Source: Paucibacter sp. B2R-40 (lineage in GTDB: Bacteria > Pseudomonadota > Gammaproteobacteria > Burkholderiales > Burkholderiaceae_C). From it: a stretch of 64,000 nucleotides of DNA. Under the pieces are notes generated by a model. That model worked only from the letters and a program-made list of their open reading frames with translations. It made no database searches and was not told the origin of the DNA. The position numbers and the translations under genes are program-made. The DNA is taken from assembly GCF_025717555.1 (NCBI RefSeq), contig NZ_JAJIRP010000001.1:62001-126000 (forward strand), written 5' to 3'. Below, piece by piece: positions 4,614 through 61,174 of this stretch (positions are counted from its first letter, which is position 1; each line of letters opens with the position of its first letter).

Positions 4614-4784
4614 GGGAGGCGCTTAGAAAAAATACGGTCGAAATATTGCCCGGCAGGACAGGGGTCGCCATTCTGCCAAAGTCCACGCCGCGCCCAAATT
4701 GCGTCCAAACAGCAAAGGCCTGCCTTTGCCCGGCCATGCACTGGCTAAACCCTTAAACTGCGGGGCCACCACCGACCGCAGGCC

Positions 4785-42915: not shown

Positions 42916-42998
42916 GGGAATAGCGGCGCGAATCCAGATCGGCGCGCGTATTTTCGAGCGGAATGTGACTGCTCCGCTCATGCTGATCAGTCAGTCGC

Positions 42999-44027
42999 CT
43001 AGCTCTTCACTGATTGATTGCAGTACGGGTGCGTGAGTTGAATATTGCGAATCGAACCCGTACCGCCTTCGCGCGCCCGAACTATGTGGTCATAAGAGAT
43101 GGACTTTTCTGGATCCAAGTAGCCGCTGCAAATAGGGCACTTCATCGCGCCGAGGAGTGCGGTTTGAATGAATGCAGCGCTTTTGACGTCCTGAGAAAAG
43201 CTCAGCTGTGCTGTGTCGCTTGTGCCGGTCAAGATCTTTCCCTCAAGACCCGCAAACTGCACCAATTCTATTTCTCCTACTGCCTGAGCCGCTCCCAATG
43301 CTTCGATGAGTTTGCCAAGCATCATCATGTATCGAGCCACCCGGCCTGCACTTGAGGTTCGCTGAAGAATGGTGGCGACTACATCTTTGTGGTCAATCAA
43401 AACGCGCTCTAAATCGGCGCGAACCGAAGTGAAACGATTGAAGAAATTCTTGTCGTTGTTGGCGAGCTTCTGTCCGACAAGCGCCACCGTGCCCATGAAT
43501 AGCGCGCTGGAATGCCGACCTGTTGGTCCATAGAAATACACAGCAGGGTGCAGCCCAAGGCTGCCGCCATCATTGCCGGTGATCCGACCGATTAAGTCCA
43601 AAGCTTTAGCAAGCGTCTTAAGCGTCAGTTGCCCATCCGGGTCGTCGGGCAAGCTCTCCACCCTTCTGGGCTCTCCTAGCTGATCACGGACGGCAATCAG
43701 CATAAGGTCAATAAGCGTCTCTAGCGCAGTGCGGATTCCCTTCGGCCCACCCAGGGGCAGATCAAGCGTCTTAATTGGACGCTGAATCTCAGGATCAAAC
43801 AGCGATGAATGAAGGCTTTTGGCCCGGGACTCAATTTGCTGAACGACTTCGGGGCTGAACCGCGACCAGTACCGATGCCCTCGTCCAGAACGGATGATTG
43901 CTCGAGACGCAATGGACGAGGGTTTGGCTCTGTTCTTAAGCAAAAGCTCTTCAATCTCATCTAAGGGGGTCCCCTTAGTATTGATCTTGAAAAAGGAACT
44001 TTCAGCTTTGTCCGCATCGCCTTTCAC
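42999..44027 (-). pseudogene. 5'-truncated DUF262-like protein with C-terminal HNH nuclease motif
   Basis: A 342-residue frame opening at GTG 44027. The start cuts into a DUF262-like motif (FFKINTKGTPLDEIEELLL, RASRAI-type region), and in-frame codons upstream of the GTG continue it as IPIQWVKGDADKAE, so the N-terminal domain that should carry the DGQQR motif is missing. The C-terminus has a typical HNH zinc-finger-like nuclease: CPICSGYLDPEKSISYDHI then THPYCNQS. Intact relatives (GmrSD/type IV restriction-like) cut modified DNA. It lies at the edge of accessory DNA, 1.2 kb from an integrase. It could be an inactive remnant or a shortened functional nuclease. Confidence 0.65.
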
Positions 44028-44125
44028 CCATTGGATGGGTATGTGAATGTTTGAAATCTTGTGCTGCCCAACGTTTGAGCTAACCGGACCGTTGCAGCAT
44101 GCCGCAATGGGGCCGGTTGAGTAGG

Positions 44126-44599
44126 TTAGGCCCCAATGTGCAGAGAAGTTGGTAAATTCTCGCGCGTCCCAAGCAACAAAACCTTCAGTGCGATTCTTAC
44201 TGCTCGCTTCGCTTCCTCTTCTAATTCCGGCTGTTGATAACTCATTGCCGTCGGATCTGCTGGTGAATGCTGCGAAGGGTGCACGATGTACTTCCTTCTA
44301 TTTGTCAACCAAATCCAGTCATCTCTAAGTTCAAATTTCTCTAGAAACTTCGCTTCTCGCTTTTCATCCTGGCCATTGACGTAAACTTCGACCGCCGCAC
44401 AGGCGAAAACAATGGTTGCGTACCACGCCCCGGCGCAAAATACTGTCTCCAGTTCCAGTTCTAGTACGCGAGAATGATTCGTCGATACTCCAGTTCCTTC
44501 GCCAAGAGCTTCGCCCATTGCCCACGAGAAATAGTCGGTGCGAGAGCTCCAGAGTTCCCGACTCGGATAGGGGTCTTTGAGAATTTTTGATACTGTCAT
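44126..44599 (-). CDS. hypothetical protein upstream of the HNH gene
   Basis: A 157-residue protein I do not recognise. It begins MTVSKILKDPYPSRELW and has an alpha-helical middle (CAGAWYATIVFACAAVEVYVNG) followed by a charged part with LTNRRKYIVHPSQ. No signal peptide. It precedes the truncated HNH gene by 99 bp on the same strand. Base composition is lower in GC than the chromosome to the left, fitting acquired DNA. Confidence 0.55.
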   Translation of the reverse strand: MTVSKILKDPYPSRELWSSRTDYFSWAMGEALGEGTGVSTNHSRVLELELETVFCAGAWYATIVFACAAVEVYVNGQDEKREAKFLEKFELRDDWIWLTNRRKYIVHPSQHSPADPTAMSYQQPELEEEAKRAVRIALKVLLLGTRENLPTSLHIGA

Positions 44600-44840
44600 G
44601 ATCTTTGACTTTGGGAGCTACTTGGATTTCTGGAGACAGCAGTGCCGCTGAACTTGGCGCGCAGTCACCTTTACTTATCTGGATAGAATTGGCTAGGAGC
44701 CGCGCGCATTTTGGCAGTATGTGGTATGTGCCGTTTGTAACATACAATATCAAATAACGAGCGAAAACCTCATCCAGATTCTGAACTGCTTTATTGCCGG
44801 ATTGCTCAGGAACAAACCATGGCGGTACAGCCTTGGGCAT

Positions 44841-45252
44841 TGGAGTCGCATACGAGTGATCAGTCTATCGGCCCAATGGGGGGGGCGGGCGAAATGCGCC
44901 GAAGCTGGCAGGTGCTCCGCGAATTCGGCGAATCAGTAAAAGAGCTCTATTGATTCGATGCGCTTCGATTGAAGGGACTCGGGGACAGATAGCCGACGCT
45001 GGGCAATCACTGCTTACTGGTGAGGAGCAGCGTTTAAGAAGCTAGAGTGGACGACTGCAACGGGCACACGGCCTCACCAAGGTCCACGCCGCAAAGTAGC
45101 TGAGGTTGGCAGAGTGGCAGCACACGTTGTCGGCCAACAAGAAAACAAAGGCAAAAGCTGCTTTCATGCCGGCCGATCTCGACGCGTGGCGCGGACAACG
45201 ACGTAATCCAAGCAGGCTGTCACCCTGCTCGGAAAACCGCCGTATTTCGTCG
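44841..45252. other. non-coding stretch before the integrase stop
   Basis: About 410 bp with no supportable gene. Short open frames on either strand (for example 45106-45290) lack start signals and known motifs. It may be recombination debris at the edge of the integrase module. Confidence 0.5.
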
Positions 45253-46317
45253 TTATGCCGTCTGCCGCTGGGTCGGTCGAACGATAACCGATGCAGCGTT
45301 TGCCGCCTCCTGAAGCACCTTGGAGGACAAGTGTGCATAACGCATGGTCACCTTCGGGTCGGAGTGACCGAGGATCTGCTGAACCTCGTACAAACTGCGG
45401 CCAGCTGTCACCAGCAAGGACGCGTACGAATGTCTCAAGTCATGCAGTCGCACGCTCGGCACTTTGGCTTCTTTCCGCAGCCGGTACCAAGCTCTAGTGA
45501 TGGTCGTGTACGGCTCATCTTTGCCGCCCTTTTGCTTGGCCGGCGATGGGAACAAATACGCCGACTTGCCCTTGGTGTCCAGTTGCTCCAACACCCATAG
45601 CGCCGAATCGTTCAACGGAATGGACCGAGGCTTCTTGGATTTCGACGAGATGGCATCGACTTTCCAAGTACCGCCATCAATATTGATGTTTTTCCAGGTG
45701 GCGGTCAGGGCTTCATTTAGGCGGGCGCCCGTGCTGAGAAGGAACATCACGATGCAACACACCATGCGATTGTCATCGTGGCGCAGCACATCAACCAATC
45801 GGTCCAACTGGTCTTGGTCCAGATAGTTTTCGACCTGGTTGTCGACCATGTATAGCTCGATGCCCCTAAGCGGATTCTTTTCGAGCAGTTCCCATTGAGC
45901 GGCCAAATTCAGCACCCTGCGCATAAGCTTGACGTGATGGTCGGCCGAGGCCGGCGACAAGCCCTCTTTCAGCAGGCCATTCTGAAAAGCTTGAACGTCA
46001 CGGCGGTTGATGGCCGACAACGTCAGATCGCCGAACTTCGGTTTGATGCGGATGCGATACAGCTGGTCATCGCGCTTAACTGACCTTTTGTGGACGGTCG
46101 CGTGCGGAAAGTAGAGGTCAGTCATGAACTTGTCCAGCGTCATCTCCTCCGCTGCGGCCACCACGACCGCCTCCACGACCTTGGGTGCAAGCATGTGCTC
46201 GGCCTTGAGTTGCTTCGCTTGCTTCTTTGCTTGGCTCAGGCTCAAGTCTTTAATCGTGCCCAGATTCTTGTAGATATTGGTGTGCCACTTTAATGTCCGA
46301 CGCATGGTCCAAAGCAA
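45253..46317 (-). CDS. tyrosine recombinase/integrase
   Basis: About 354 residues. The core-binding SAM-like domain is at residues 58-150 and the catalytic domain at 165-345 with all expected residues: Arg199 (STGARLNEAL), a Lys in SSKSKKPRS, His292/Arg295 (LHDLRHSYASLLVTAG), His318 (ILGHSDPKVT) and Tyr327 (MRYAHLS). The N-terminal arm-binding part is short (TLKWHTNIYKNLGTIKDLSLSQAKKQA), so some N-terminal sequence may be lost; an overlapping frame (46250-46555) does not obviously supply it. No matching attachment site is seen beside it; the tRNA-Phe site at 49.6 kb is 3.3 kb away and points the other way. Confidence 0.88.
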   Translation of the reverse strand: MLWTMRRTLKWHTNIYKNLGTIKDLSLSQAKKQAKQLKAEHMLAPKVVEAVVVAAAEEMTLDKFMTDLYFPHATVHKRSVKRDDQLYRIRIKPKFGDLTLSAINRRDVQAFQNGLLKEGLSPASADHHVKLMRRVLNLAAQWELLEKNPLRGIELYMVDNQVENYLDQDQLDRLVDVLRHDDNRMVCCIVMFLLSTGARLNEALTATWKNINIDGGTWKVDAISSKSKKPRSIPLNDSALWVLEQLDTKGKSAYLFPSPAKQKGGKDEPYTTITRAWYRLRKEAKVPSVRLHDLRHSYASLLVTAGRSLYEVQQILGHSDPKVTMRYAHLSSKVLQEAANAASVIVRPTQRQTA

Positions 46318-46539
46318 AGCGCGCCAACTGCGAGGCCAGTCGATTGAAGTCAGATGTGTCAGCGTGGCGGAAACGCTTCACTTTTTCATGGGTCATTTTG
46401 CGCCGCATGCCAAAGACGATGCCTCTGCTCATCGTCGAATCAGGCAAGTGCTTTTCAAGTGCAATATGAGACTCGTCTTTCCGGAACAAAGTTGAACCGC
46501 CTCGTTGGCATAGGAATCCTTTCGGTTTGGTTGGAAGGC

Positions 46540-46579
46540 AAAAAAAAAAGGGCACCCGAGGTCGAAACCTTGGGCGCCC
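46540..46579 (-). terminator. rho-independent terminator after the PEP-CTERM gene
   Basis: A 12-bp stem with one mismatch and one G-U pair (46550-46561 with 46568-46579, loop 6), followed on the minus strand by a run of Us (A-run at 46540-46549). It lies 150 bp beyond the PEP-CTERM stop. Confidence 0.85.
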
Positions 46580-46728
46580 TACAGGGATATTGATTTGGAA
46601 GGATCAGTTCAGCACTTGTGCCGCGTACATTCGCCAAGAGTCGGCAATGCCACACGGCGTGGTCAGTTGATGCCCTTTACAACATCGATATTCAGAAGTC
46701 GACTTTTACAGAGAACTGCGTGTGTCAG

Positions 46729-47394
46729 TCAAACTGTCAGAGAGGCAGATTTACGTCGCCTGATCGCAAAGCCTAAAAGTCCTAGGCCACCGAACATGAG
46801 TGCCAAGGACGAAGGCTCAGGAATCGGGGCCGCGTGAACCAATAAGCTACCAAAAGCCATGTTCCTTTCGGATACCGACATCAACTCTGGAGAATTGCTA
46901 GCTGCATCAAGTCCAAATGAGTCAAGAAACCAGCCGCCAGGTGCTAGGCCAACGTTTGAATAGAAAACTCCGTACATACCCCTGCAACTTTGCGTCAAGT
47001 CCGTAGAGCATTCATCCTCTTTTCCATAGAAAAAACTGTGCAATTCATTGTGGCCGGCAAACAAGTTTCCGCTGCCAAGATTCTGAAAAAACCAATCTGC
47101 ACCGTCGCCATTTAATGTAGAACCCCCTTGAACACCGCCCCAAAGTGATTGAAGCAGCCGACCGGTTTCGTCTCGACTGGCATAACGCCATCCGTTTGCG
47201 AATAAACCACTTTGGCCGGCCTCAATTTCGGACCGAGAGTACCCTCGGGTCATGTCCAAGGACATCCACTCCAGACCTTGAAGGTCAACCAATTTCCCCA
47301 TCGACGTGTAGCTATCCCCAGAAATCACGCCAGCGTTAGAAACAGTCGAAGCCAATGAAATAGCCAAAACCGCCGCAAAACCTTTTATATTCAT
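46729..47394 (-). CDS. PEP-CTERM sorting domain protein
   Basis: A 221-residue exported protein: Sec signal (MNIKGFAAVLAISLASTVSNA), an uncharacterised globular domain with a WMSLDMTRGYSRSEIEAG segment and two cysteines (DECSTDLTQSC), then the C-terminal sorting signal PEPSSLALMFGGLGLLGFAIRRRK. Such proteins are processed by an exosortase, which is not encoded in this window. ATG at 47394 with AGGGA upstream is preferred to a longer frame beginning at 47442. Confidence 0.9.
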   Translation of the reverse strand: MNIKGFAAVLAISLASTVSNAGVISGDSYTSMGKLVDLQGLEWMSLDMTRGYSRSEIEAGQSGLFANGWRYASRDETGRLLQSLWGGVQGGSTLNGDGADWFFQNLGSGNLFAGHNELHSFFYGKEDECSTDLTQSCRGMYGVFYSNVGLAPGGWFLDSFGLDAASNSPELMSVSERNMAFGSLLVHAAPIPEPSSLALMFGGLGLLGFAIRRRKSASLTV

Positions 47395-47831
47395 AAATAG
47401 TCCCTTGAAGTAGTAATTAATATTCGCAACGGCCGTCATCACTCAACGAGCCCTTGGGTGTCAAGATAGTAGACACAAACGTCGCACACACGGTGAGTTA
47501 GTTTTCTTCGCCCCCCTCAATGCAAGGGTGGGTTTATATGTAGAAACATGCGATCGCATAAGCTGGCGCTCGTCTGCGTCCTTGGTCGCTCTTGACAATC
47601 TTGGTGAACTTGGAATTCATTGGCCTCCCTGCGGATTTGGTGTTGGACAACTTGGTGGGTTTTGGTTGAATATTTCCTCCTTTCGGAGAGTCGAAGAACG
47701 GCAATGGCGGGAGCCAAGCCGGACGAAGAGATAGGAAATGGAAGGGGTAGGCTCACTGCCACACGAAGGTGGCCGACAAGACGGACGGAAAAATATGCAG
47801 GTCAAGCCACGCGTTCGATATGCGGATGGCT
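47395..47831. other. non-coding stretch with first copy of a 19-bp repeat
   Basis: No supportable gene in about 440 bp. The 19-bp sequence TCACTGCCACACGAAGGTG at 47753-47771 recurs exactly at 48203-48221; the two copies flank the zinc-ribbon gene. Confidence 0.6.
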
Positions 47832-48170
47832 TTAGAACAATGCGCGGAACAGGCCGCCAAATAGCGCGCCAATGACGGAGAAGGTGAATAGAAGAATCAA
47901 AATTGCAGGGATTGATGCCAATGCCCACTTGATCATGAAAAAAACCATAGACCAAAATGGAATACTCGCGTCAACGATAGAAACCATTTGCACTTGGAGC
48001 GTGCCCTTGGCGTTCGACTTATTTTTCTCGCGAGCTAATTCCGCTCGGTTCTCCGCCGATTCACTATTTATTGACTTGTCGGGCGGTATTCCTTCCTTCG
48101 AATAGCCGCAACTCCAACATGCATCAAATTCGTCTTCGATAGATTTAGAGCAGTGCTTACATTTCCACAT
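47832..48170 (-). CDS. small zinc-ribbon membrane protein
   Basis: A 112-residue protein starting MWKCKHCSKSIEDEFDACW and then SCG, four cysteines in a CxxC...CxxC zinc ribbon. A charged linker (SESAENRAELAREKNK) leads to a C-terminal hydrophobic region with one or two membrane segments (SMVFFMIKWALASIPAILIL, LFTFSVIGALFGGLFRALF). AAGGA precedes the ATG at 48170. Function unknown. The gene is bracketed by 19-bp direct repeats, suggesting it arrived as a unit. Confidence 0.65.
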   Translation of the reverse strand: MWKCKHCSKSIEDEFDACWSCGYSKEGIPPDKSINSESAENRAELAREKNKSNAKGTLQVQMVSIVDASIPFWSMVFFMIKWALASIPAILILLFTFSVIGALFGGLFRALF

Positions 48171-48202
48171 TAATTCGTCCTTATTGATGAGAATATTTGG
48201 TG

Positions 48203-48221
48203 TCACTGCCACACGAAGGTG
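48203..48221. repeat. second copy of the 19-bp direct repeat
   Basis: Exact copy of 47753-47771 in the same orientation, 450 bp apart, lying just upstream of the zinc-ribbon gene. Confidence 0.8.
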
Positions 48222-48361
48222 CCGGTCTTGGCTTCGGTTGTGTGAAGGAGCGAGAGAAGTGGAGCGGCCCATGCGGCGGCTCTGCTTGAATTGGTTTTCA
48301 TGACTTTGATTCCCATAGAGACAGAGGCGGCGAATGCGGTGCGCCGGCCCTCCGTCGGTGA

Positions 48362-48508
48362 TTACGGATAGGTGCGCGTCTTGGCGGGGGCTTGGGTGGG
48401 GCTGGCCTTGATAGCGGCCACGACGGCCAAACCAACAAGCAAGCCCAGCACAAGAGCGGTGTTGCCCTTGCCCGCAAATCCAGTCAGCATCGAAACAGGT
48501 GCTTGCAT
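48362..48508 (-). CDS. tiny single-pass membrane protein
   Basis: A 48-residue protein MQAPVSMLTGFAGKGNTALV then LGLLVGLAVVAAIKA, with a short polar tail. It has one hydrophobic segment and resembles in size and layout small phage membrane or coat proteins of filamentous phages, but that is only an impression. AGGAG lies 8 bp upstream of the ATG at 48508 and the stop of the preceding tiny gene is 5 bp before the ATG, which argues for real coupled genes. Confidence 0.5.
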   Translation of the reverse strand: MQAPVSMLTGFAGKGNTALVLGLLVGLAVVAAIKASPTQAPAKTRTYP

Positions 48509-48513
48509 GGTGC

Positions 48514-48693
48514 TCACTCCTGTTCGGTGGTTGCTGCGGAGGGCGAGGCCGAGACATGGGCAAGCCCTTTGGCCTGTACCCATTGGGCGAGGTGGTCGCC
48601 TACGGTTTGGGCTTCGTCGCGGGTCGCCGCAATGATGTTGCGACCTTGCAGGCAACGGAAGCGAAGATGGTTTGCCGGCCGAACAAGCCGCAA
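48514..48693 (-). CDS. tiny hypothetical protein, possible phage relic
   Basis: A 59-residue frame from a TTG at 48693 encoding RFRCLQGRNIIAATRDEAQT then VGDHLAQWVQAKGLAHVSA. The sequence looks protein-like and ends just before the next small gene with overlapping signals. The start is weak, so it may be the 3' end of a gene truncated at about 48.7-48.8 kb. No family recognised. Confidence 0.4.
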   Translation of the reverse strand: MRLVRPANHLRFRCLQGRNIIAATRDEAQTVGDHLAQWVQAKGLAHVSASPSAATTEQE

Positions 48694-48765
48694 CCTTCAT
48701 CCAAAACGTTCAAGACTATGCCCTGGCCGACAGTCCGAACGAGCCAGGTGCAGCCGAGCGGCGTT

Positions 48766-49491
48766 TTACCGCCGTGTACATCGACCCGGCCAAAGGTAAC
48801 CGAGGACAACGACCCCTGTATAGCTGTTTAGTTCGTCGGGTTGCGTGAATCGCCACCTGTGGGCCAGTTCTGCGAGCTGATCAACATCAATCGAATCGAG
48901 TAAGTCAGGTGCCCCCGACATGTTCTTCGTCAGAAGTGGCACCCATCTCTCTTGAATTTGACTCAACGCAGCATCAAGCCCTATTGACGTCAATGGAGCT
49001 TTGACTCCCGCATTGACTAACACAGGCTGGATTGCGGCGTAAGCTTTGTCCCAAGCGGCTTTCCTCTCATCCAAGAGTGCATCTTGGTCAACAAGGGAGG
49101 GAGACAGGGCCTTCGCAAACTTGAGTACCTCAACGGTTGCAGATTCGAAATGGTTAGCTTCGAGTTGAACCAGAACTTCACTTGGAAATAGTTGGGCGTT
49201 GGCTTTAAGAAACGCCAGCAACTCATCAACGTAGTTGCCTACATGGGGAAGCCTCCGCCCCCTGATGGACTTCCGGAACTGTTTGATCGCAAGCTCCCAA
49301 GGAACCAAATCGATCGAAGCGCCTCCAAATATCGCGACTGCAACGCCGCCCCCATCACAAAGCTCGAAAATTTTGTTCGCTGTCTTTGCGTATCGCGCTC
49401 GCTTATCGGAGTCACCATTAGAGGTTGTCACTGCGCTATCAGCGGCAACTACAACGCCACGCTTGTTGAAGATCAAGACTTCACTAGTCAC
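48766..49491 (-). CDS. Ntn-hydrolase/proteasome-like hypothetical protein, 3' end probably truncated
   Basis: About 241 residues from GTG at 49491 (GGAGG seven bases upstream). The N-terminus TSEVLIFNKRGVVVAADSAVTT resembles the first strands of proteasome-type Ntn hydrolases and of phage/bacterial hypotheticals with that fold, followed by NKIFELCDGGGVAVAIFGGA. Similar proteins continue with another beta-rich section after the SYTGVVVLGY segment, whereas this one stops at WPGRCTRR. I infer that recombination with the phage-like DNA to its left removed the natural end. Function unknown. Confidence 0.6.
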   Translation of the reverse strand: MTSEVLIFNKRGVVVAADSAVTTSNGDSDKRARYAKTANKIFELCDGGGVAVAIFGGASIDLVPWELAIKQFRKSIRGRRLPHVGNYVDELLAFLKANAQLFPSEVLVQLEANHFESATVEVLKFAKALSPSLVDQDALLDERKAAWDKAYAAIQPVLVNAGVKAPLTSIGLDAALSQIQERWVPLLTKNMSGAPDLLDSIDVDQLAELAHRWRFTQPDELNSYTGVVVLGYLWPGRCTRR

Positions 49492-49552
49492 AGCCAAACC
49501 TCCAGTGCCCTTGCACCAACAATTTTGTAGATCCGCGCGCTGATTGTAGAAA

Positions 49553-49580
49553 AGCCCCGGTCAGTTTCCTGCTCGGGGCT
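49553..49580 (-). terminator. terminator of the former tRNA-Phe locus
   Basis: AGCCCCG (49553-49559) pairs with CGGGGCT (49574-49580); on the minus strand the stem is followed by UUUUC. It lies 34 bp beyond the CCA end of the tRNA-Phe fragment, the normal place for a tRNA terminator, supporting that DNA to the left is native flank. Confidence 0.7.
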
Positions 49581-49613
49581 CTCGCCTAAGTGCTTGTCAG
49601 CCTTAGTAAATTC

Positions 49614-49658
49614 TGGTGGCCTGGGGCGGAATCGAACCACCGACACGCGGATTTTCAA
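49614..49658 (-). other. attachment site: 3' half of tRNA-Phe(GAA)
   Basis: Read on the minus strand, 45 bases match the tRNA-Phe sequence from the anticodon loop (UUGAAAAUCC) through the variable and T arms (GGUGGUUCGAUUCCGCC) to CCAGGCCACCA. Upstream of base 49658 the match stops abruptly, so the 5' half is absent. This is the usual duplicated core left at the far end of an element integrated into a tRNA gene. By that logic the element lies to the right and the intact tRNA is beyond the window. Confidence 0.85.
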
Positions 49659-49780: not shown

Positions 49781-50200
49781 GTGACTGACAGGAATCGTGA
49801 CAGGAATTCACCTCGTCCCTCTGCCAGTGGCTCAGTCCGGCCGCACCAAGGGCACCACGTCCGACTAGGTCACGCAAAGCCTTCAGCTTTGGCCGATGAA
49901 TGTTTCCACAGTTCGCTGATCGGCCTCTGGTCCTCATCGGCCCACTTCGTAGTCAATTGTAGAAGACTGTAGAGCGACGTAAGTGCTTACTAATATCATC
50001 TGAATTGACCTCGAAACCCTGATGGTGGCGAGCTGCACGCAGCTAAAGTTGGACGCTCTATATGCCCCAAGGAAGCATTGCGGCCGCAGGCGACACCGCC
50101 TTGAGGCTCTGCAATAGTGATTCCAAGCCACGAAAGCGTTCTCATGGCCTTCGATCTTGGCCGTAGCCCGCTGTGGCCATGCACTTTGAGACAAAGTCAC

Positions 50201-50256
50201 GTCTTCTATACAAGACAATATTGCGAATTCACATTAATATGTCTTGTATGAAAGAC
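50201..50256. promoter_or_regulatory. twin operators of the hipBA operon
   Basis: Two 16-bp dyads GTCTT-N6-AAGAC, at 50201-50216 and 50241-50256, exactly 40 bp apart. The same segment also contains a perfect 10-bp inverted repeat ATACAAGACA/TGTCTTGTAT (50208-50217, 50240-50249). The first dyad overlaps a possible -10 box TATACA, the second overlaps the hipB start codons. This is the expected layout for autoregulation by HipB dimers. Confidence 0.7.
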
Positions 50257-50532
50257 ATTATTCGCCTGCCTAGTGACTTGGGCCGAGCCGTCATGCAGGA
50301 GCGCAAGGCCAGCAAGATGAAGGCAACTGACATCGCACTGCGTGCCGGCCGAGCGCGTGACGTGCTCTATCGCTTGGAGCAGGGCGAGGATGTCACCGTC
50401 AGTTCGCTGATGGCCATCCTAGGTGCCATGGGTCTGACCATCCGGATTGAGCGTGCGGGCATGCCGTCCTTGGAGGACGTCCAACGACGCTTTGGTTCAG
50501 CCGACGAGGACGACGATGCAGCCGCTTCCTGA
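50239..50532 (+). CDS. HipB-like antitoxin, XRE-type HTH
   Basis: A 97-residue DNA-binding protein with a Cro/XRE helix-turn-helix (KASKMKATDIALRAGRARDV then LYRLEQGEDVTVSSLMAIL). The frame extends to 50173, but ATG at 50239 or 50248 is the likely start although neither has a good RBS and both lie within the second operator, so a leaderless or very short leader message is possible. The 3' end overlaps hipA by 17 bp. It should bind and neutralise the HipA kinase and repress the operon. Confidence 0.8.
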   Translation: MSCMKDIIRLPSDLGRAVMQERKASKMKATDIALRAGRARDVLYRLEQGEDVTVSSLMAILGAMGLTIRIERAGMPSLEDVQRRFGSADEDDDAAAS

Positions 50533-51745
50533 AAAAATTAAGCAGCTGGAGGTCGAGATCGGCGGCGCCTTACGCGGCCAGCTGCTCAAACACTCGGTCT
50601 ACGAGTTTCGCTACACAGACAGCGTTATGGTCGATCAGCCTGCCGTTGGACTGTTGATGCCTCCCAGCACGCCTACCTACCGCGATGGTGACCTGTTTGC
50701 GGTCATGGATCAGCATCTGCCCGAGGGGGATCTGTTCATGCGCCTGCGCGCCCTGTTTCCCAAGCAGCCGCTGACGCCGATGCACCTGCTAGCACTGGTG
50801 GGTTCCAACGGTATTGGCCGACTTGGCTACCAGTTGCCCGATAGGCCGGCAGCGGCACGGGGAACAGTGATGGACCGCAAGGCCTTGCTGGGAACGACGT
50901 ACACGCCTGAGGTGTTTGATGAACTCGTGCGAGCCTACCTCAGCACGGGTGCTGGCATTGCCGGCATGCAACCCAAGATCATGGTGCCGGATCGGCCGAC
51001 GATCCCGATCCCCACGCTCATCGTCAAGACGGCTTCAGATGCCTACCCTGGATTGGCGGCTAACGAATTCATGTGCCTCACCGCCGCCTCGAAGGCCGGC
51101 ATCCTGACGCCAGGGTTCGATCTGTCGCATGACGGGCAGATGCTGGTGCTGGATCGGTTCGACATCGAGCCCGATGGCACCCGCCTGGGCTTTGAGGATG
51201 TAGCGGCCTTGATGGGCCTGCGCGTGCGCGATGTTCTGTCTGATCGAAAGTACCGCGGCAGCTACGAGACGGTCGCGGAACTGCTGCAATACCTGCAATT
51301 GCCCAGCGAGAACCTTCGTCGCTTCTTCGGGCAGGTCGCCTTCACGGTGATGGTGCGCAACGGCGATGGCCACCTGAAGAACTTCGGCTTGCTTTACCGC
51401 GCACCAGGGGATGCATGGCTGGCACCCATGTTCGACGTGGTCACCACCTCGATCTATCGCTATCAGCAATATGTGGGCGGACCAGATCTGGAGGACCGCA
51501 CGTTAGCCCTGAAGCTCTTTGCGGGACGAGGGCAAACCAAAGCTTATCCGACAACGCAGGAGTTGCTGAGGTTCGGCCGTGAAATCTGCGGCATCAACCG
51601 GCCTGCACAAGTGCTTCAACAAATTGCGGACGCAATGGTGCAAACGCTGCGAGAAGCCGAGGCGGACGAGCGCATACCGAACGCCTTGGTGGCCGAGATG
51701 CGAGTGGTTTGGGAGGACGGCATGATGCATGACCGCAAGGTCTAA
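50516..51745 (+). CDS. HipA-like serine/threonine kinase toxin
   Basis: About 409 residues from ATG at 50516. The N-terminal subdomain spans residues 1-110. The kinase core shows a lysine strand (TLIVKTASDAYPGLAANEFM), the hinge MLVLDRFD, the catalytic loop NGDGHLKNFGLLY (Asp284) and the metal-binding MFDVVTTS, all characteristic of HipA. HipA kinases phosphorylate aminoacyl-tRNA synthetases or other targets and cause growth arrest. All key residues are present, so it appears functional. Confidence 0.87.
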   Translation: MQPLPEKIKQLEVEIGGALRGQLLKHSVYEFRYTDSVMVDQPAVGLLMPPSTPTYRDGDLFAVMDQHLPEGDLFMRLRALFPKQPLTPMHLLALVGSNGIGRLGYQLPDRPAAARGTVMDRKALLGTTYTPEVFDELVRAYLSTGAGIAGMQPKIMVPDRPTIPIPTLIVKTASDAYPGLAANEFMCLTAASKAGILTPGFDLSHDGQMLVLDRFDIEPDGTRLGFEDVAALMGLRVRDVLSDRKYRGSYETVAELLQYLQLPSENLRRFFGQVAFTVMVRNGDGHLKNFGLLYRAPGDAWLAPMFDVVTTSIYRYQQYVGGPDLEDRTLALKLFAGRGQTKAYPTTQELLRFGREICGINRPAQVLQQIADAMVQTLREAEADERIPNALVAEMRVVWEDGMMHDRKV

Positions 51746-51822: not shown

Positions 51823-52122
51823 ATGACTGCATTCAACGATCAACATGTTGACACCGACCGGAACCCTGCCGAGGGCAACCAGCTGTCGAGCGAGTCGGAG
51901 AAATGCCCCGTTGAGTTGCCGTTCCTTGATAGGCTGTTGGCAATGTCGCGGTTAGTTTCTGCGTTTCACTTCGGCCGTGCAGCCAACGCTGTGCCGATGG
52001 TTTCCGCGGAAGCTAACTTCGCTCGCTTGACTGACTCGTCAATGGATACGCTGTCGGCACAGCTTGAACAGGACGTTCCTTTGCGAACTGACTTCGGTCC
52101 AATTTGGGGTCGGCGAGAGTAA
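51823..52122 (+). CDS. small hypothetical protein
   Basis: A 99-residue acidic protein (MTAFNDQHVDTDRNPAEGNQ...) with AAGG about ten bases upstream of the ATG. No motif recognised; the second half (FLDRLLAMSRLVSAFHFGRA) could form two helices. The next 138 bp to the TPR stop hold nothing I can identify. Uncertain gene. Confidence 0.4.
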   Translation: MTAFNDQHVDTDRNPAEGNQLSSESEKCPVELPFLDRLLAMSRLVSAFHFGRAANAVPMVSAEANFARLTDSSMDTLSAQLEQDVPLRTDFGPIWGRRE

Positions 52123-52260: not shown

Positions 52261-53832
52261 CTACGGGTCTAACATCAACAACGTATTGGTGATCGCATCC
52301 CAACGCCAGGCACGCTTTGCAACTCGCGCGGACGCGGTTGTTTGGAGCTCTTTGCGCTTTTTGGCGTCGACCAGACCTTGAACCACATAGATAGCGCCGA
52401 CACTGGGCAACCGGGAAACTATCTCAGCCGACTCGTGGACAATGGTATTGGCCTGAGGGTCCCCAACATTAGTAGCAATTCGCGCGAAGAACGCGCGCGC
52501 GAGTCCCTCTGAATAAGGCTCGCCCCGCATCCGTGCAGACTTAATCGCACGCTGATAGAGCTGCCTTCCCAGCTCAAAATCGCCAGACGCATAGGCCAAC
52601 GCACCACCGTTGGCTAGATAGTGCGTCGCATGCATCTTCAAATCAGGATGCCTACCCAAGCGAAGGAAGTCCTCCATGGCGTCATCCAAGTCGCCGGCCT
52701 GGATCTGCGCGAATAGCAAATTTAGTGCCGGGCCGATGTCATCACCGTCAAGGTCATGTGCGGCTTTCGCGGCCACCAATGATTCGGCATATCGGCCCTT
52801 GAGGCATAGCAAATAGCACTGGGCGTCCATAGGGCGCGAGGCGAACGGTTCGTCCTTTGCCCAAAGCACAGCATGATCGATAGCAGAGTCGATTTCTTGA
52901 CGACGATAAGCGTTATGCGAATTCGCCTCATATGACATAGGCGTTTGCAAAGCCTGGTGGTCGACTACCAACTTAAGCCGTGCCGCAGCCCATTCGGCTT
53001 GAGCCAGGCTGTTGTCATTCGGGTGGCTCAATGCATGCTTGAAGAGGGTTTTGGCCTTCTTGTCCGATCCTGAGAGGAGTTCAACTGTGCCAACTGCACT
53101 CGCGAGTTCGGTCACTTCGGCGCCGACATGCTTGGCCTCACTCAATCGCTTAATTGCCGGCTTGGCAAGATTCGAGGTTTTGCCAAGCACGGTGGCAACC
53201 GCGATCTCCGAAGCCTGCACCCAGGGATCCGAACCGACCAGCGGTGATCGGCGCAGCAGGTCGTGGGCGATTTCGTGCTCCCCGACGTGCAGGTAGTATC
53301 GAGCTGCCGCGCGAAGCACAAACCTGGAGCTCGGCGCCAGAGCAACTGCCGCCCGAACGTACCGGAGTGCCGCCTTATCCTGACGCATAGCTGCAAGTTC
53401 ACGGGCCGTATCCATCAGCAAGACTGGATTGCGATAGTCGATGGCTAACAGCTTGCGCGCATGCTTCACAAAGTCTTTGGATACCGACTCGACCCTGTCA
53501 GATGAGCCTCCCTGCAGCACCTGTTGGGCCGAGCGGACAAGCTGCGTAGAGCCGATTTGAGCCCTACTAGCCAGGATCACTTCTGCGGCCTGCCTAGCGG
53601 CGATTTCATTGCCTGCAGCCGACGCCAAGAACATCAACTCGGCGGCCACAGGGACCGAACGGACAAGTTCGAGCTCGCGGAGCTTATGCGAGACCTCCAA
53701 CTCGTCCTTCTTCTTGGAGCCTTCAGACTGCCTGGTCGGGAGCAACGTGGATTTGGCTTCGGCCGAGGTTGCTGTGACCCATGACGGCCGCCACCGCGGC
53801 ACGACTCGACGTGGCCTCTGGTCATCAAGCAT
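52261..53832 (-). CDS. TPR-rich helical protein paired with a protein kinase
   Basis: A 523-residue protein, cytoplasmic by lack of signal peptide. After a disordered basic N-terminus (about 50 residues), the rest is a solenoid of alpha-helical pairs, e.g. AALRYVRAAVALAPSSRFVL, HVGEHEIAHDLLRRSPLV, GRYAESLVAAKAAHDLDGDD and GDFELGRQLYQRAIKSA, typical of TPRs. No enzymatic motif. Its start overlaps the kinase stop by 8 bp, so the two are translationally coupled and probably form a complex or kinase-substrate pair. Confidence 0.7.
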   Translation of the reverse strand: MLDDQRPRRVVPRWRPSWVTATSAEAKSTLLPTRQSEGSKKKDELEVSHKLRELELVRSVPVAAELMFLASAAGNEIAARQAAEVILASRAQIGSTQLVRSAQQVLQGGSSDRVESVSKDFVKHARKLLAIDYRNPVLLMDTARELAAMRQDKAALRYVRAAVALAPSSRFVLRAAARYYLHVGEHEIAHDLLRRSPLVGSDPWVQASEIAVATVLGKTSNLAKPAIKRLSEAKHVGAEVTELASAVGTVELLSGSDKKAKTLFKHALSHPNDNSLAQAEWAAARLKLVVDHQALQTPMSYEANSHNAYRRQEIDSAIDHAVLWAKDEPFASRPMDAQCYLLCLKGRYAESLVAAKAAHDLDGDDIGPALNLLFAQIQAGDLDDAMEDFLRLGRHPDLKMHATHYLANGGALAYASGDFELGRQLYQRAIKSARMRGEPYSEGLARAFFARIATNVGDPQANTIVHESAEIVSRLPSVGAIYVVQGLVDAKKRKELQTTASARVAKRAWRWDAITNTLLMLDP

Positions 53833-54841
53833 GTTGTAGAACTGGCCTGATGCCAGCCTTCTTGCGCAGGATATCGAACTTGGCTACATATCGCTCCAGC
53901 CAGAGCGGACCGGCCGATGATTTGTCAGTGCCCGCGCGGCCACGAACGGTTGGATCTGGATGGCAAAGGTCTAGCACAATGTCGATCAACTCGGCCCGGA
54001 ACCGCTCAGGAAAATCGTTCGATAGCTCTGCCAAAGCATCAACCATTGCGGCCTTTATGTGGTCGATCACCTGTTCATAAGAGTCGCCCCAGACATTTGG
54101 TTTGTGAGCATCCGCAAGTTTGCCGATCACGAAGTCAGGGAAGCAGATGTTGGTAAAGTTAAAAACTACGAGACACCCTAGGTGGAATACATCGACACTT
54201 AGCCTACGTTCTAGCCAATCAGGGCGTAAATAGCCATACCGCTGTTCAAAAGGGGCGTAGTTAAGTGCTCCCGCAATTGCTTCTCCATCGTGTGGCGCGA
54301 CCTTGCCCCGCAGCGAAGACCGACCGAGGTCGCCGAGCTTAAGGCGGTCGTCGAATCGAAGTACGTTGGAAGGCTTCAAGTCCTGGTGTGCAATCTTCTC
54401 TTTATGCAGTTGCAGGAGCGCCAAGGTAGTCTGGTGCAGGATCTGAAACCGCCACTGATCGGTAACGTTCTTGCTGACGTCGACGCTATCGCGAATGTCT
54501 CCATCTGCTAGCTCGAAAATCAGAAAGGGAACATTCCTTAGCAATGGCGCCGCATTCGGATCACGCTCGACGTTATCGGACTCAAATACTTGCGCGATGC
54601 GGACGAGACGCTTGTCGCGGCAGAGCTTTGCAAGCTCGGCCTCGTAGTTGAATGCGCCAAGCAGCCAACCGATCTGCGAGATATCGAACTTCAGAATGTC
54701 AAGCGCCTTCAGAAACGCCTTGCGTCCGTCTTTCTCGACGTAATAACAGTCGCTAAAGTAACCGCCAGTGTGATCAGCTGCAAAGCTGACTTGGTCGCCG
54801 ATCAACCACCCTGCTGGCGTGGTCTTGCCCTTTAAGTCCAT
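53825..54841 (-). CDS. Hanks-type serine/threonine protein kinase
   Basis: A 338-residue soluble kinase. A glycine-containing loop (AADHTGGYFSDCYYV) precedes Lys45 (KAFLKALD); the catalytic loop is AHQDLKPSNVL (Asp154, Lys156, Asn159) and the DFG equivalent is LGDLGRS (Asp171); APE-equivalent NYAPFEQRYG. All catalytic residues are there, so it should be active, unlike many bacterial pseudokinases. There is no transmembrane segment or PASTA domain. GGGAGAAAACGAAG precedes the ATG. The kinase/TPR pair in a mobile element next to a toxin-antitoxin suggests a defence or regulatory role. Confidence 0.82.
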   Translation of the reverse strand: MDLKGKTTPAGWLIGDQVSFAADHTGGYFSDCYYVEKDGRKAFLKALDILKFDISQIGWLLGAFNYEAELAKLCRDKRLVRIAQVFESDNVERDPNAAPLLRNVPFLIFELADGDIRDSVDVSKNVTDQWRFQILHQTTLALLQLHKEKIAHQDLKPSNVLRFDDRLKLGDLGRSSLRGKVAPHDGEAIAGALNYAPFEQRYGYLRPDWLERRLSVDVFHLGCLVVFNFTNICFPDFVIGKLADAHKPNVWGDSYEQVIDHIKAAMVDALAELSNDFPERFRAELIDIVLDLCHPDPTVRGRAGTDKSSAGPLWLERYVAKFDILRKKAGIRPVLQHA

Positions 54842-55261: not shown

Positions 55262-55687
55262 TCAGCGCAGCAAGATCAACTGCGGCATCGCGTCAGCGCC
55301 GCTCCAGATGATGGCGTTCTGCGCCCACCTTGTGCCCAGGGACTTGGCCGCCTCCAAGGTCACGCCGAAGATCAGAAAGCTTGCCTCGCCGGACCACTCA
55401 TCTGACGGAGGTTCACCGACACCCTCAATGCTGACGAGGCTGCGCTTGCGAAGCTCTGCGGATAGCTCGGAATTGCGTTGATTGTTAACGCCAATCTCTT
55501 GGCCTAGGCCGAGCGGATTCCATGCGGTGATGTAGGCGCTGCAATTCACGCCGTGACGCCTGTGTGCGGCGGCCAGAGCCGGACTGGCCTCATCCACCTT
55601 TAACGTGAACGGTTCGTTGCCATGCACCTTGTATTCGGTTTTCCGGTAGGCCTGCACTAGGCCGCTGTCAATTACTGATTCGAGCAA
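55262..55687 (-). CDS. DUF3293 domain protein
   Basis: A 141-residue protein matching the DUF3293 pattern: YRKTEYKV, then SAYITAWNPLGLGQ with following Asn-Asn-Gln-Arg-Asn, then DEWSGEASFLIFGVTLEAAK. The family is of unknown function and common near mobile elements. TTG at 55687 is well supported by GGAGGG eight bases upstream. It is preceded by a truncated small coding remnant on the same strand. Confidence 0.75.
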   Translation of the reverse strand: MLESVIDSGLVQAYRKTEYKVHGNEPFTLKVDEASPALAAAHRRHGVNCSAYITAWNPLGLGQEIGVNNQRNSELSAELRKRSLVSIEGVGEPPSDEWSGEASFLIFGVTLEAAKSLGTRWAQNAIIWSGADAMPQLILLR

Positions 55688-55711: not shown

Positions 55712-55933
55712 TTAAGAGGGCCGACGCAGCTCCCGTATCTTTGCCCCCAATGAGGCCACATCCGCTTGCGCGATCCACCTTGCCCGGGAGGGCAGGTTGG
55801 CGTGGGCGTCGGCCCATCTCCAGATGCGGGTTGGACTGTATCCGAGCTTTCTGAATGAATTGGGCTGCAGATTTTTAGGGGGTGGGTCGCTTCTCCTGGA
55901 GCGGACAGCTTTGCCCTGTGCAGCCTTTCCAAG
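55712..55933 (-). pseudogene. start-less remnant with HTH-like end
   Basis: An open frame of 73 codons without ATG, GTG or TTG start, encoding SFRKLGYSPTRIWRWADAHA then NLPSRARWIAQADVASLGAKI. The segment looks like a helix-turn-helix followed by a helix and reads as real protein. It ends 24 bp before the DUF3293 start and is cut at its 5' side by the repeat array beginning near 55964. Probably the 3' end of a small regulator whose front was replaced by repeats. Confidence 0.5.
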
Positions 55934-55963: not shown

Positions 55964-57022
55964 TTGCGGTGTTTGAGGAGTCAAAACACGATGGATGCAG
56001 CCTACAGGCGAGTCAAGTGAGATCCGAAACTTGAGCTGCAGCCGGCGAATCGTGTCTTGACTCACAAAAGTGCCGAGGTAGTGACTTGCGCCGAAACGTC
56101 CCCATTCCTTCGGTGACCGTACCTGTTTCTGCGCTAAATGCGCGTTCAATGGCCAAAAGCCAACACAGGTGCCGAACACGTTCGTCAAAACACGATTGAT
56201 GCAACGTACAGGCGAGTCAGGTGAGATCCGGCACATGAGCTGCAGCCGGCGAATCGTGTCTTGACTCCGAAACGTGGCGCCATTCTGATGAGTCAAAACA
56301 CGAATTCCGCCGGGTTCAGGCGAGGTAGTGACTTGCGCCGAAACGTCCCCATTCCTTCGGTGACCGTACCTGTTTCTGCGCTAAATGCGCGTTCAATGGC
56401 CAAGAGCCAACAAAGGTGCCGAACACGTGCGTCAAAACACGATTGATGCAACGTACGGGCGAGTCAGGTGAGATCCGGCACATGAGCTGCAGCCGGCGAA
56501 TCGTGTCTTGACTCACAAAAGTGCCGAGGTAGTGACTTGCGCCGAAACGTCCCCATTCCTTCGGTGACCGTACCTGTTTCTGCGCTAGATACGCGTTCAA
56601 TGGCCAAGAGCCAACAAAGGTGCCGAACACGTGCGTCAAAACACGATTGATGCAACGTACGGGCGAGTCAGGTGAGATCCGGCACATGAGCTGCAGCCGG
56701 CGAATCGTGTCTTGACTCACAAAAGTGCCGAGGTAGTGACTTGCGCCGAAACGTCCCCATTCCTTCGGTGACCGTACCTGTTTCTGCGCTAAATGCGCGT
56801 TCAATGGCCAAGAGCCAACAAAGGTGCCGAACACGTGCGTCAAAACACGATTGATGCAACGTACGGGCGAGTCAGGTGAGATCCGGCACATGAACTGCTG
56901 CCGGCGAATCGTGTCTTGACTCCGAAACGTGGCGCCATTCTGAGTCAGAACACGAATGCCGTCGGGTTCAGGCGAGGTAATGACTTGCGCCGAAACGCCC
57001 CCATTCCTTCGGTGACCGTACC
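55964..57022. repeat. 204-bp satellite array with internal inverted arms
   Basis: Box GTCAAAACACGAT begins units at 55980, 56184, 56431, 56635 and 56839; the steps are 204, 247, 204 and 204 bp. The longer step contains an extra short unit (GTCAAAACACGAATTC at 56292), and a last short one occurs at 56944. Inside each full unit, GAGTCAAAACACGATT-like and AATCGTGTCTTGACTC arms face each other about 50-55 bp apart. Because 204 is divisible by three, long open frames run through it; I regard them as artefacts. Copies are nearly identical, so the array is young or homogenised. Confidence 0.9.
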
Positions 57023-59648: not shown

Positions 59649-59820
59649 TGCGGTGTTTGAGGAGTCAAAACACGATTGATGCAAGCAGCAGACGAGTCAA
59701 GAGCGCGATACAACATGAGATACGACTGCCGATTCGTGTCATGACTCACAAAAGTGCCGAACACCTGCGTCAAAACACGAATGCTGCAGGCTTCAGGCGA
59801 GGTAATGACTTGAACCGATG
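59649..59820. repeat. diverged second cluster of the GTCAAAACACG repeat family
   Basis: TGCGGTGTTTGAGGAGTC at 59650 onwards repeats the left edge of the array at 55965, followed by a full-type box (59664) with its inverted partner near 59725-59743 and a short-type box (59769) followed by AGGCGAGGTAATGACTTG. It is more diverged than the copies of the main array. Confidence 0.8.
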
Positions 59821-59981: not shown

Positions 59982-60773
59982 TTTCAACTGTTGAAAGTTT
60001 GACGCTCCATGGCGGATCTGGTTGTTTCGGGAGGGTTTCAACCGTTGAAAGTGCTTTGCGTGACTAAGCCTAATGGTGCTGGCGGAGTCGGTTTCAACCG
60101 TTGAAACCTCGCCAACTGCGCAAGACCCGGACGCTCCGGTATGGGGTTTCAACCGTTGAAAGTTCCTTGTGAGACGAAGGCTGACGGTCCAGCCAGAGTC
60201 GGTTTCAACCGTTGAAACCTCGCCAACTGCGCAAGACCCGGACGCTCCGGCATGGGGTTTCAACCGTTGAAAGTGCCTTGTGAGACGAAAGCTGACGGTG
60301 CAGCCCGAGTCGGTTTCAACCGTTGAAACCTCGACCACTGCGCAAGACCTGGACGCTCCGGTGTGGGGGGTTCAACCGTTGAAAGTGCCTTGTGTGACGA
60401 AGGCTGACGGTGCAGCCCGAGTCGGTTTCAACCGTTGAAACCTCGCCAACTGCGCAAGACCCGGACGCTCCGGTATGGGGTTTCAACCGTTGAAAGTGCC
60501 TTGTGAGACGAAGGTTGCTGGTCAAGCCCGAGTCGGTTTCAACCGTTGAAACTTCGGCAGCTGCGCAAGACCCGGACGCTCCGGTATGGGGTTTCAACCG
60601 TTGAAAGTTCCTTGTGAGACGAAGGCTGACGGTCCAGCCAGAGTCGGTTTCAACCGTTGAAACCTCGCCAACTGCGCAAGACCCGGACGCTCCGGTATGG
60701 GGTTTCAACCGTTGAAAGTGCTTTGTGAGACGAAGGCTGACGGTCCAGCCAGAGTCGGTTTCAACCGTTGAAA
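59982..60773. repeat. array of fifteen 15-bp palindromes TTTCAACCGTTGAAA
   Basis: Sites start at 59982, 60036, 60092, 60147, 60203, 60258, 60314, 60370, 60426, 60481, 60537, 60592, 60648, 60703 and 60759. Steps are 54 then 55-56 bp throughout. Two kinds of 40-bp spacer alternate, so the true unit is 111 bp with two sites. Even-numbered sites are flanked to give 9-bp arms (GGTTTCAAC-C-GTTGAAACC). One spacer contains the dyad CCGGACGCTCCGG, the other GGCTG...CAGCC. Only the first site (central T) and the eighth (first base G) deviate; end units are more diverged than the middle. Spacers repeat, so it is not a CRISPR. Confidence 0.95.
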
Positions 60774-60796: not shown

Positions 60797-61174
60797 TCAA
60801 TCGCTATCAAGCGGCCTCCGTTCTTGTACGGGCAAATCCTCGCTTAAGCGATTGAATAGCTTCGACATGATCCAGTTTAGTTCCGCGGCAGTTACATCCC
60901 AGGATTTCTCAATGACGGCGTTCTTTACCTTCGGTAGAAGGGCATCGATCAGCAATTCAGGACTTTCACTCAGCTTCCGCTTGCAGTAGACAAAGAGTTG
61001 ATCAACTAGATCCCGGCAATTGTCGAATCTTTCGGCAATTTCTTCTTCTGTTCTCCCTGAAACATATTTTCCATCTATCAGTCGAACCAGAATTTTGGGC
61101 TGGACGCCGCTAACGGATCCAACAGGTGGCTCTCTTGGAAAATCGTCGGGGATTGCGATGGATTTGGGTTGCAT
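60797..61174 (-). CDS. small conserved-looking protein abutting the palindrome array
   Basis: A 125-residue protein (MQPKSIAIPDDFPREPPVGS...) with GSVSGVQPKILVRLIDGKYV, a charged helical middle EEEIAERFDNCRDLVDQLFV, and a C-terminal WDVTAAELNWIMSKLFNRL. I recall similar small proteins (SGVQPKLLVR...G.T.EEL..R.D.C.DL) as uncharacterised accessory-genome proteins; the SGVQPK string also recalls a HipA segment. No established function. Its stop codon lies 24 bp from the last palindrome, so transcription runs directly into the array. Confidence 0.65.
   Translation of the reverse strand: MQPKSIAIPDDFPREPPVGSVSGVQPKILVRLIDGKYVSGRTEEEIAERFDNCRDLVDQLFVYCKRKLSESPELLIDALLPKVKNAVIEKSWDVTAAELNWIMSKLFNRLSEDLPVQERRPLDSD

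Follow-up and report, generated by a model that had tools for sequence, protein, structure and literature searches.

The window, a 64,000-nucleotide stretch of the Paucibacter sp. B2R-40 genome, carries a regular array of fifteen palindromes that is very probably a parS-type array, composed of predicted ParB binding sites. On balance, the evidence slightly favors a plasmid-type centromere without parAB, located on a tRNA-Phe island and most likely acting in trans. The first-pass annotation of this DNA had listed a centromere-like partition site among several roles for the array, and this is the option that the evidence favors: arrays of the same 15-mer lie beside parA and parB elsewhere. Another of the listed roles, a decoy for a DNA-binding protein, is a possible consequence of the centromere reading.

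The array and its island

The fifteen near-identical 15-bp palindromes, TTTCAACCGTTGAAA, span 790 bp (59982-60773) with a mean step of 55.5 bp, the individual steps being 54, 56, 55, 56, 55, 56, 56, 56, 55, 56, 55, 56, 55, and 56 bp. With up to 3 mismatches on both strands, the 15-mer has 30 matches in the 64-kb window versus 0.84 expected by chance. Within the 5.6-Mb genome, TTTCAACNGTTGAAA is present at the array and nowhere else. Thirteen of the 15 sites are identical, sites 1 and 8 being the exceptions (Table 1), and 14 are perfect palindromes. TRF reports a unit of 111 bp in 6.7 copies, within which two types of spacer, A and B, alternate. Each type has its own small dyad, GGCTG..CAGCC in A and CCGGA..TCCGG in B, and its own preceding flank: GG-15mer-GT before spacer A, and GG-15mer-CC before spacer B (CT once, after site 11). 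The array diverges more at its left end: spacer 1 (39 bp) is clearly assignable to neither type, and the other A spacers share only 68-78% identity with spacer 2; farther in, spacer 4 is identical to 12, and spacer 3 to 9 and 13. Thus, the even spacing, the thirteen identical sites, the 111-bp unit with two alternating spacers, the dyads, and the greater uniformity of the middle copies, all of which had been read from the sequence at first pass, are borne out. The array had also been called noncoding. On the minus strand it is in fact crossed by two ORFs, 148 and 164 aa long, and open frames persist mechanically because 111 is a multiple of 3; a coding array was rejected on the strength of one 112-bp unit, which shifts the frame.

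That the array lies in a mobile element, as originally proposed, is confirmed by 49-bp perfect att repeats and an integrase. The left repeat is listed in Table 1, the second copy is found at C1:138175-138223, and the island measures 26,614 bp (26.6 kb). The tRNA-Phe gene itself lies at C1:138179-138254, adjoined by the phage-type integrase gene. The GC content of the island is 55.6% versus 63.7% for positions 1-42900 of the window. Besides the genes in Table 1, the cargo includes a type I restriction-modification set. A small ORF 5' of the HipA-type gene, within the tabulated span, is presumably the antitoxin partner HipB, judging by eye, and a further piece of the island is, again by eye, what we take to be part of an IS110-type transposase gene. 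This piece and the resolvase tail, which is all of the R. koreensis resolvase gene with homology in the window island, are signs of decay. A 712-aa ORF (62818-64956) matches no family in Pfam, PADLOC, or PHROGs; it runs past the end of the window and contains an Xre-like stretch by eye.

Table 1. Features of the array and of the island portion within the window
Feature	Position	Strand	Remarks
Left attachment repeat	49610..49658	+	49-bp perfect copy of tRNA-Phe 3' end
HipA-type kinase gene	50447-51745 within 50173..51745	+	HipA domains
Serine-resolvase gene, tail fragment	52008..52121	+	71% identity over 120 nt to R. koreensis resolvase gene
Candidate defence pair PDC-M71B (TPR protein) and PDC-M71A (kinase)	52261..54841	-	
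DUF3293 gene	55262..55687	-	relative in R. koreensis locus, 48% over 140 aa
Site 1, outlying variant TTTCAACTGTTGAAA	59982..59996	none	centre is T, symmetry intact
6.5 units of 111 bp	60036..60758	none	site, spacer A (41 bp), site, spacer B (40 bp, once 41)
Site 8, GTTCAACCGTTGAAA	60370..60384	none	sole inner site with an altered base: outermost (first) base is G
125-aa ORF adjoining array	60797..61174	-	no family found in profile searches

Two further observations concern the surroundings. The DUF3293 gene is preceded, at a distance of about 40 nt, by a SAM-I/IV riboswitch match (55727-55832, minus strand) of 60 bits, where the gathering score is 41.1; this match was not found in the R. koreensis locus. 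Just outside the island, a low-GC stretch (42981-49610) has its own phage-type integrase (45253-46317) and is perhaps an older neighboring insertion; a search for additional long copies of the att repeat found none.

The same site beside partition genes

A scan of one genome per species, covering 84,980 species, for two copies of TTCAACNGTTGAA 30-60 bp apart yielded 11 stretches; its reach is close pairs, with wider-spaced or single sites falling outside. At least two exact copies of TTTCAACNGTTGAAA are present in four of these stretches, from two Salinimonas species, R. koreensis, and Caenimonas sedimenti. In C. sedimenti, five sites follow a presumed rep gene, parA, and parB, the first of them 55 bp after parB; three hold TTTCAACSGTTGAAA and two have 1-2 changed outer bases. 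Salinimonas profundi has 12 array sites and 3 singles (at most 1 mismatch), a run of N within the array, and parAB 3.4 kb away, while the 8 kb examined in S. chungwhensis hold 5 array sites, 3 singles, and also the beginning of a parA (96% identity over 47 aa). The remaining seven stretches lack the exact 15-mer and were set aside. One of the seven, from a Sulfobacillus MAG (4542-5301 of its stretch), holds GTTCAACSGTTGAAC three times, with a weak ParA match (E 1e-4) 0.9 kb past the last copy, and is perhaps another par locus with a near-identical site.

Plasmids carry the site as well. On the circular plasmid pKD01 of Alteromonas macleodii, a ParA gene and a gene annotated as "hypothetical" are followed by seven exact 15-mers with steps of 87, 87, 87, 87, 87, and 43 bp. 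The "hypothetical" protein matches the ParB profiles TIGR00180 (1e-7, under the cut-off) and phrog_1146, ParB-like (2e-15), and is 34% identical over 178 aa to the Salinimonas ParB; the latter was itself named on a weak match (5e-6, under the cut-off) to a SopB-type model, and Pfam gives no match. On MRG65-300, a circular plasmid of A. mediterranea, a 97% relative of the pKD01 ParB precedes six sites, one of them A-centred, with steps of 44, 43, 44, 43, and 44 bp and two alternating spacers. This putative centromere is built like the window array, on a shorter unit. The two Alteromonas loci differ from the window in having parAB, a plasmid setting, other spacers, and AT-rich flanks in place of GG and GT/CC; we infer the parS role of their arrays from position. 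Altogether, the site of the array is the repeated site beside par genes in five other records with clustered 15-mers: both parA and parB are nearby in four of them (Caenimonas, S. profundi, and the two Alteromonas plasmids), and the start of parA in the fifth, S. chungwhensis.

Other searches returned isolated or altered sites. A Pseudoalteromonas plasmid encodes a distant relative (28%) of the pKD01 ParB and has two sites with 2 changed bases; an array of the 15-mer was not found on it. The whole array gave no blastn match in PLSDB. Short queries gave weak matches to 13 (B-type) and 8 (A-type) records, one of the A-type matches leading to Alteromonas pKD01, and the full 19-21-bp form with GG and GT/CC flanks was not found in PLSDB plasmids at a threshold above the level of a bare 15-bp match. 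Single exact sites are present on Enterobacter pCP102 and Sphingomonas pNXO2, with no gene annotated as par within 4 kb. Two scans of viral contigs gave 3 and 10 stretches; none of the 3 contains the exact 15-mer and each of the 10 contains it once. In all three stretches whose ORFs were read, the exact site overlaps a long ORF, and tblastn of five Caenimonas and Salinimonas par/rep proteins against the ten stretches gave no match at E 1e-3.

Among relatives of the window genome, which is included in these counts, the site is found in 2 of 18 genus genomes and a close pair of sites in 2 of 299 family genomes. With the GG flank, it occurs in 1 of 399 order genomes, namely the window genome (R. 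koreensis lies outside this sample), and the array is known from this one genome. In R. koreensis the GG-15mer-GT sites form a single inverted pair, located 180-260 bp upstream of a serine resolvase gene; the contig starts 315 bp before the first site and leaves the far side unseen. A 21-bp string, GGTTTCAACCGTTGAAAGTGC, is exactly common to R. koreensis and the window. The R. koreensis locus also has the defence-type genes HmaB and HmaC, the DUF3293 relative, and the resolvase gene; so the sites are carried by two related loci.

A broader view of such sites comes from the family of the Caenimonas ParB (P0001), which has a SopB-type HTH and a ParB N-domain, and which finds matches at 1e-40 or better in 44 of 299 family genomes. 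The 39 parB loci compared (30 from family genomes, 6 from PLSDB plasmids, 2 from Roseateles relatives, and that of Caenimonas itself) were picked by similarity to this protein and are thus not independent; L074 and L085 are apparently one plasmid. Palindromes centred on a single base, with arms of at least 8, are present at 37 of the 39 loci (3-9 in shuffles), and those with an AC-S-GT centre at 32 (0-1 in shuffles). Even palindromes are found at 12 loci with no central base (4-7 in shuffles) and at 8 with two (3-10 in shuffles). The window 15-mer, as a predicted ParB site, fits this odd-palindrome AC-S-GT class. The survey thereby gives a likely parS class for the Burkholderiales plasmid ParB family, for which no printed parS was found in the accessible portion of the literature searched.

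Within this family, the bases of the half-site covary with residues of the presumed recognition helix. Half-sites were assigned by eye in 34 of the 39 loci, five of them (L091, L096, L102, L103, and L111) from a single palindrome; L110, L112, L076, and L045, which offered no suitable palindrome, and the duplicate L074 were dropped. The 34 loci give 26 distinct helix/half-site pairs. At base -3, A occurs with L, Q, A, M, or W, G with D (2 of 2), and T or C with N (7 of 7). At base -4, G occurs with K or R (20 of 20), C or T with M, T, or S (5 of 5), and A with K (1 of 1). At base -5, T occurs with S (11 of 13), G with G (10 of 11), and A with G or R. The mutual information of the -3 and -4 pairs was reached by none of 2000 shuffles, which ignore shared ancestry. 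This covariation is what direct reading of the palindromes by ParB would give. The Caenimonas ParB, whose site is that of the window, has A at the -3 contact and M at the -4 contact, in keeping with the pattern; the Alteromonas and Salinimonas ParBs, being of another type, stand outside the set. Such covariation could become a predictor of parS and incompatibility groups in the Burkholderiales plasmid ParB family, and would allow prediction of which plasmids an array like that of the window affects.

KorB of RK2, a ParB-family protein, also has an operator in several copies: OB is an odd palindrome with an S centre, and the operators are scattered. The array differs in sequence and in its arrangement as one array. 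PMC10954446 counts 12 palindromic 13-bp operators in RK2 and PMC11790492 gives a 16-bp OB sequence. The Bsr parS of Burkholderiales secondary replicons resemble the array site in being palindromic and in coming from the same bacterial order; however, they are described in PMC5450999 as 16-bp even palindromes with a central CG, whereas the array site is a 15-bp odd palindrome with one central base. It also differs from the chromosomal parS TGTTTCACGTGAAACA given in the same paper; a palindrome containing TTCACGTGAA is found near the chromosomal parB. The 15-mer was not found in the literature searched, which leaves most subscription journals outside, and none of the titles and abstract openings listed for Alteromonas parS, Variovorax/megaplasmid parS, and orphan parS describes it. 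The initial statement that this is not a known parS therefore holds for that literature, while the site does stand beside par genes in public records. According to PMC6015842, putative parS of related Polaromonas plasmids are collected in its Supplementary Table S6, which may list part of the odd-palindrome class.

Partition genes in the window genome and proposed action in trans

In cis to the array, no parA or parB was found in the window and the next 40 kb. Across this 104 kb, tblastn with three Caenimonas and two Salinimonas partition/replication proteins gave a best E of 0.73, and queries with Methylibium rep, parA, and parB and Ideonella rep around the array gave nothing at E 0.1. In the window genome and R. 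koreensis as a whole, the Caenimonas ParB has no match at E 0.001, and a search with the pKD01 ParB (P0004), made without a positive control, found no close ParB. PF02195 detects one chromosomal-type ParB in each of the two genomes and, in the window genome, one more on contig C23; the latter was taken as an ICE type, and no repeated palindromes were found within the 14 kb around it. The Salinimonas ParB has no PF02195 match, which means that the search could overlook a divergent ParB of this type. With the ParA query P0003, the longer ParA-like matches are 30-34% identical, the best of them close to the chromosomal parB, and all others are short. Integrases found beside plasmid parB have one weak match in the window (E 4e-4), to the integrase at 45253-46317, outside the island. 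ParB types that accompany such sites thus exist in other records, and none was found in the window genome; allowing for a Pfam search that is blind to the Salinimonas type, the cognate parAB is very probably absent. So the array would work like, or derive from, a centromere, and is not predicted to be a complete par locus.

Two known systems provide the closest parallels. The centromere of plasmid F, sopC, consists of twelve 43-bp repeats with ten 16-bp motifs (PMC6238139), and like the array it is a regular tandem of a short inverted repeat, which in sopC is bound by ParB. The 43-44-bp steps of Alteromonas MRG65-300 match the 43-bp repeat given there. The window array differs in having 15 sites, a 55.5-bp step, two alternating spacers, another site, and no adjoining parAB found. 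The second parallel, a tested precedent, is SGI1. Two parS-like sites on this element are bound by the ParB of IncC plasmids and make SGI1 more stable and the plasmid less so (PMC10954446); the authors argue that replication adds 14-16 sites, comparable to the plasmid's own number. The traits shared with SGI1 are an integrative island with an integrase and att repeats, and parS-like palindromes without parAB of its own (with the queries used). In contrast to the two sites of SGI1, whose dose rises by replication, the window has 15 sites in one array on one copy; the site sequence differs too, and no helper plasmid is seen in the window genome.

By analogy, a plasmid ParB that reads TTTCAACSGTTGAAA would load on the fifteen sites of the island. 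The array would then compete with the plasmid's own centromere, leading to incompatibility and plasmid loss, and the excised island might become cargo of the plasmid's ParA. We infer the binding of ParB, the action in trans, and the effect on plasmids from such comparisons. An active hijack or expulsion of plasmids seems about as probable as a relic, or slightly more so. In its fullest form, with a defence-type island whose high-dose centromere decoy titrates or captures incoming ParB, expels plasmids, may ride ParA when excised, and makes no protein for the purpose, the proposal is tentative, with chances slightly short of even. A centromere array without its operon is the parsimonious reading. 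If correct, the SGI1 case of two sites in one element family would extend to another bacterial group, in the form of a ready-made 15-site array, and the expulsion of plasmids by a bare DNA array would be testable with a 0.8-kb fragment.

Alternatives to the proposed working centromere

The main rival is that the array is a leftover from a plasmid that merged with the island and has since been stripped of parAB and rep, so that the sites are idle today. This is rather unlikely, although such a fusion would leave the same sequence, and the uniformity of the 15 sites may date from time on a plasmid. It would also suit the gene fragments in the island (the presumed IS110-type piece and the resolvase tail) and the situation in R. 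koreensis, where the sites, beside a resolvase, are likewise without par genes found. However, the searches of the 104 kb described above found no par or rep remnants, and the att repeats are perfect. Moreover, 14 of the 15 sites are perfect palindromes although the A spacers differ among themselves by up to 32%.

A second possibility, an improbable one that takes in the recombination substrate listed at first pass, is that the array provides operators or recombination sites for some protein belonging to the island family, for instance the serine resolvase of R. koreensis or an unnamed regulator, and that the match to parS is convergent. The inverted GG-15mer-GT pair upstream of the R. koreensis resolvase gene, the 21-bp string shared exactly with the window, and the resolvase tail within the window island all point in this direction. 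A resolvase res site, however, comprises two or three subsites, quite unlike fifteen regular direct copies. The GG-flanked site is also very rare in the order, and convergence sits poorly with the par genes found in each of the five other records of clustered sites.

The idea of a neutral satellite, in which a tandem duplication arose at random and no protein binds, has very little to commend it beyond the identical spacers, which make duplication or homogenisation certain. Deviations from consensus affect 1 of 210 cells in sites 2-15 versus 34 of 533 in 13 A and B spacers (Fisher p 1.6e-4), and variable columns number 1 of 30 in the sites versus 24 of 82 in the spacers (p 0.002), in tests that treat copies as independent regardless of duplication history. 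Because spacer 1 has clear homology to neither type, it and site 1 were excluded here; including site 1 gives 2 deviating cells of 225 for the sites. The first-pass annotation had judged the palindromes more constant than a neutral satellite requires and had proposed comparing sites with spacers; in agreement, sites are constant while spacers vary, both inside the array and between records. Furthermore, the resemblance between A and B spacers does not exceed that of shuffled sequence (p 0.35; in the same comparison, spacer 1 gives p 0.04 with B and p 0.42 with A). The presence of one site in unrelated surroundings within a single array argues for recognition of the site by a presumptive binding protein, and arrays of the same 15-mer beside parAB in other bacteria again speak against a neutral origin. 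Finally, a structured RNA template, another of the roles first suggested, or a CRISPR-like array can practically be dismissed: palindromes and spacers do alternate, but the two spacers repeat, as had been pointed out against CRISPR, the 111-nt unit has no folding advantage over its shuffles (z -0.47 and -0.89), and the array has no Rfam match at gathering scores.

The island contains a second repeat system, at 55980-56955 and 59664-59780, made of tandem units of about 204 bp (TRF 56321-56922). These units have a long dyad on GTCAAAACACGA / TCGTGTCTTGAC, with 14 matches at up to 1 mismatch versus 0.27 expected. The sequence GAGTCAAAACACGA of this system is present in 1 of 18 genus genomes, namely the window genome, and the 12-mer is also located just 3' of the R. 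koreensis resolvase gene, at about position 1320 of that locus.
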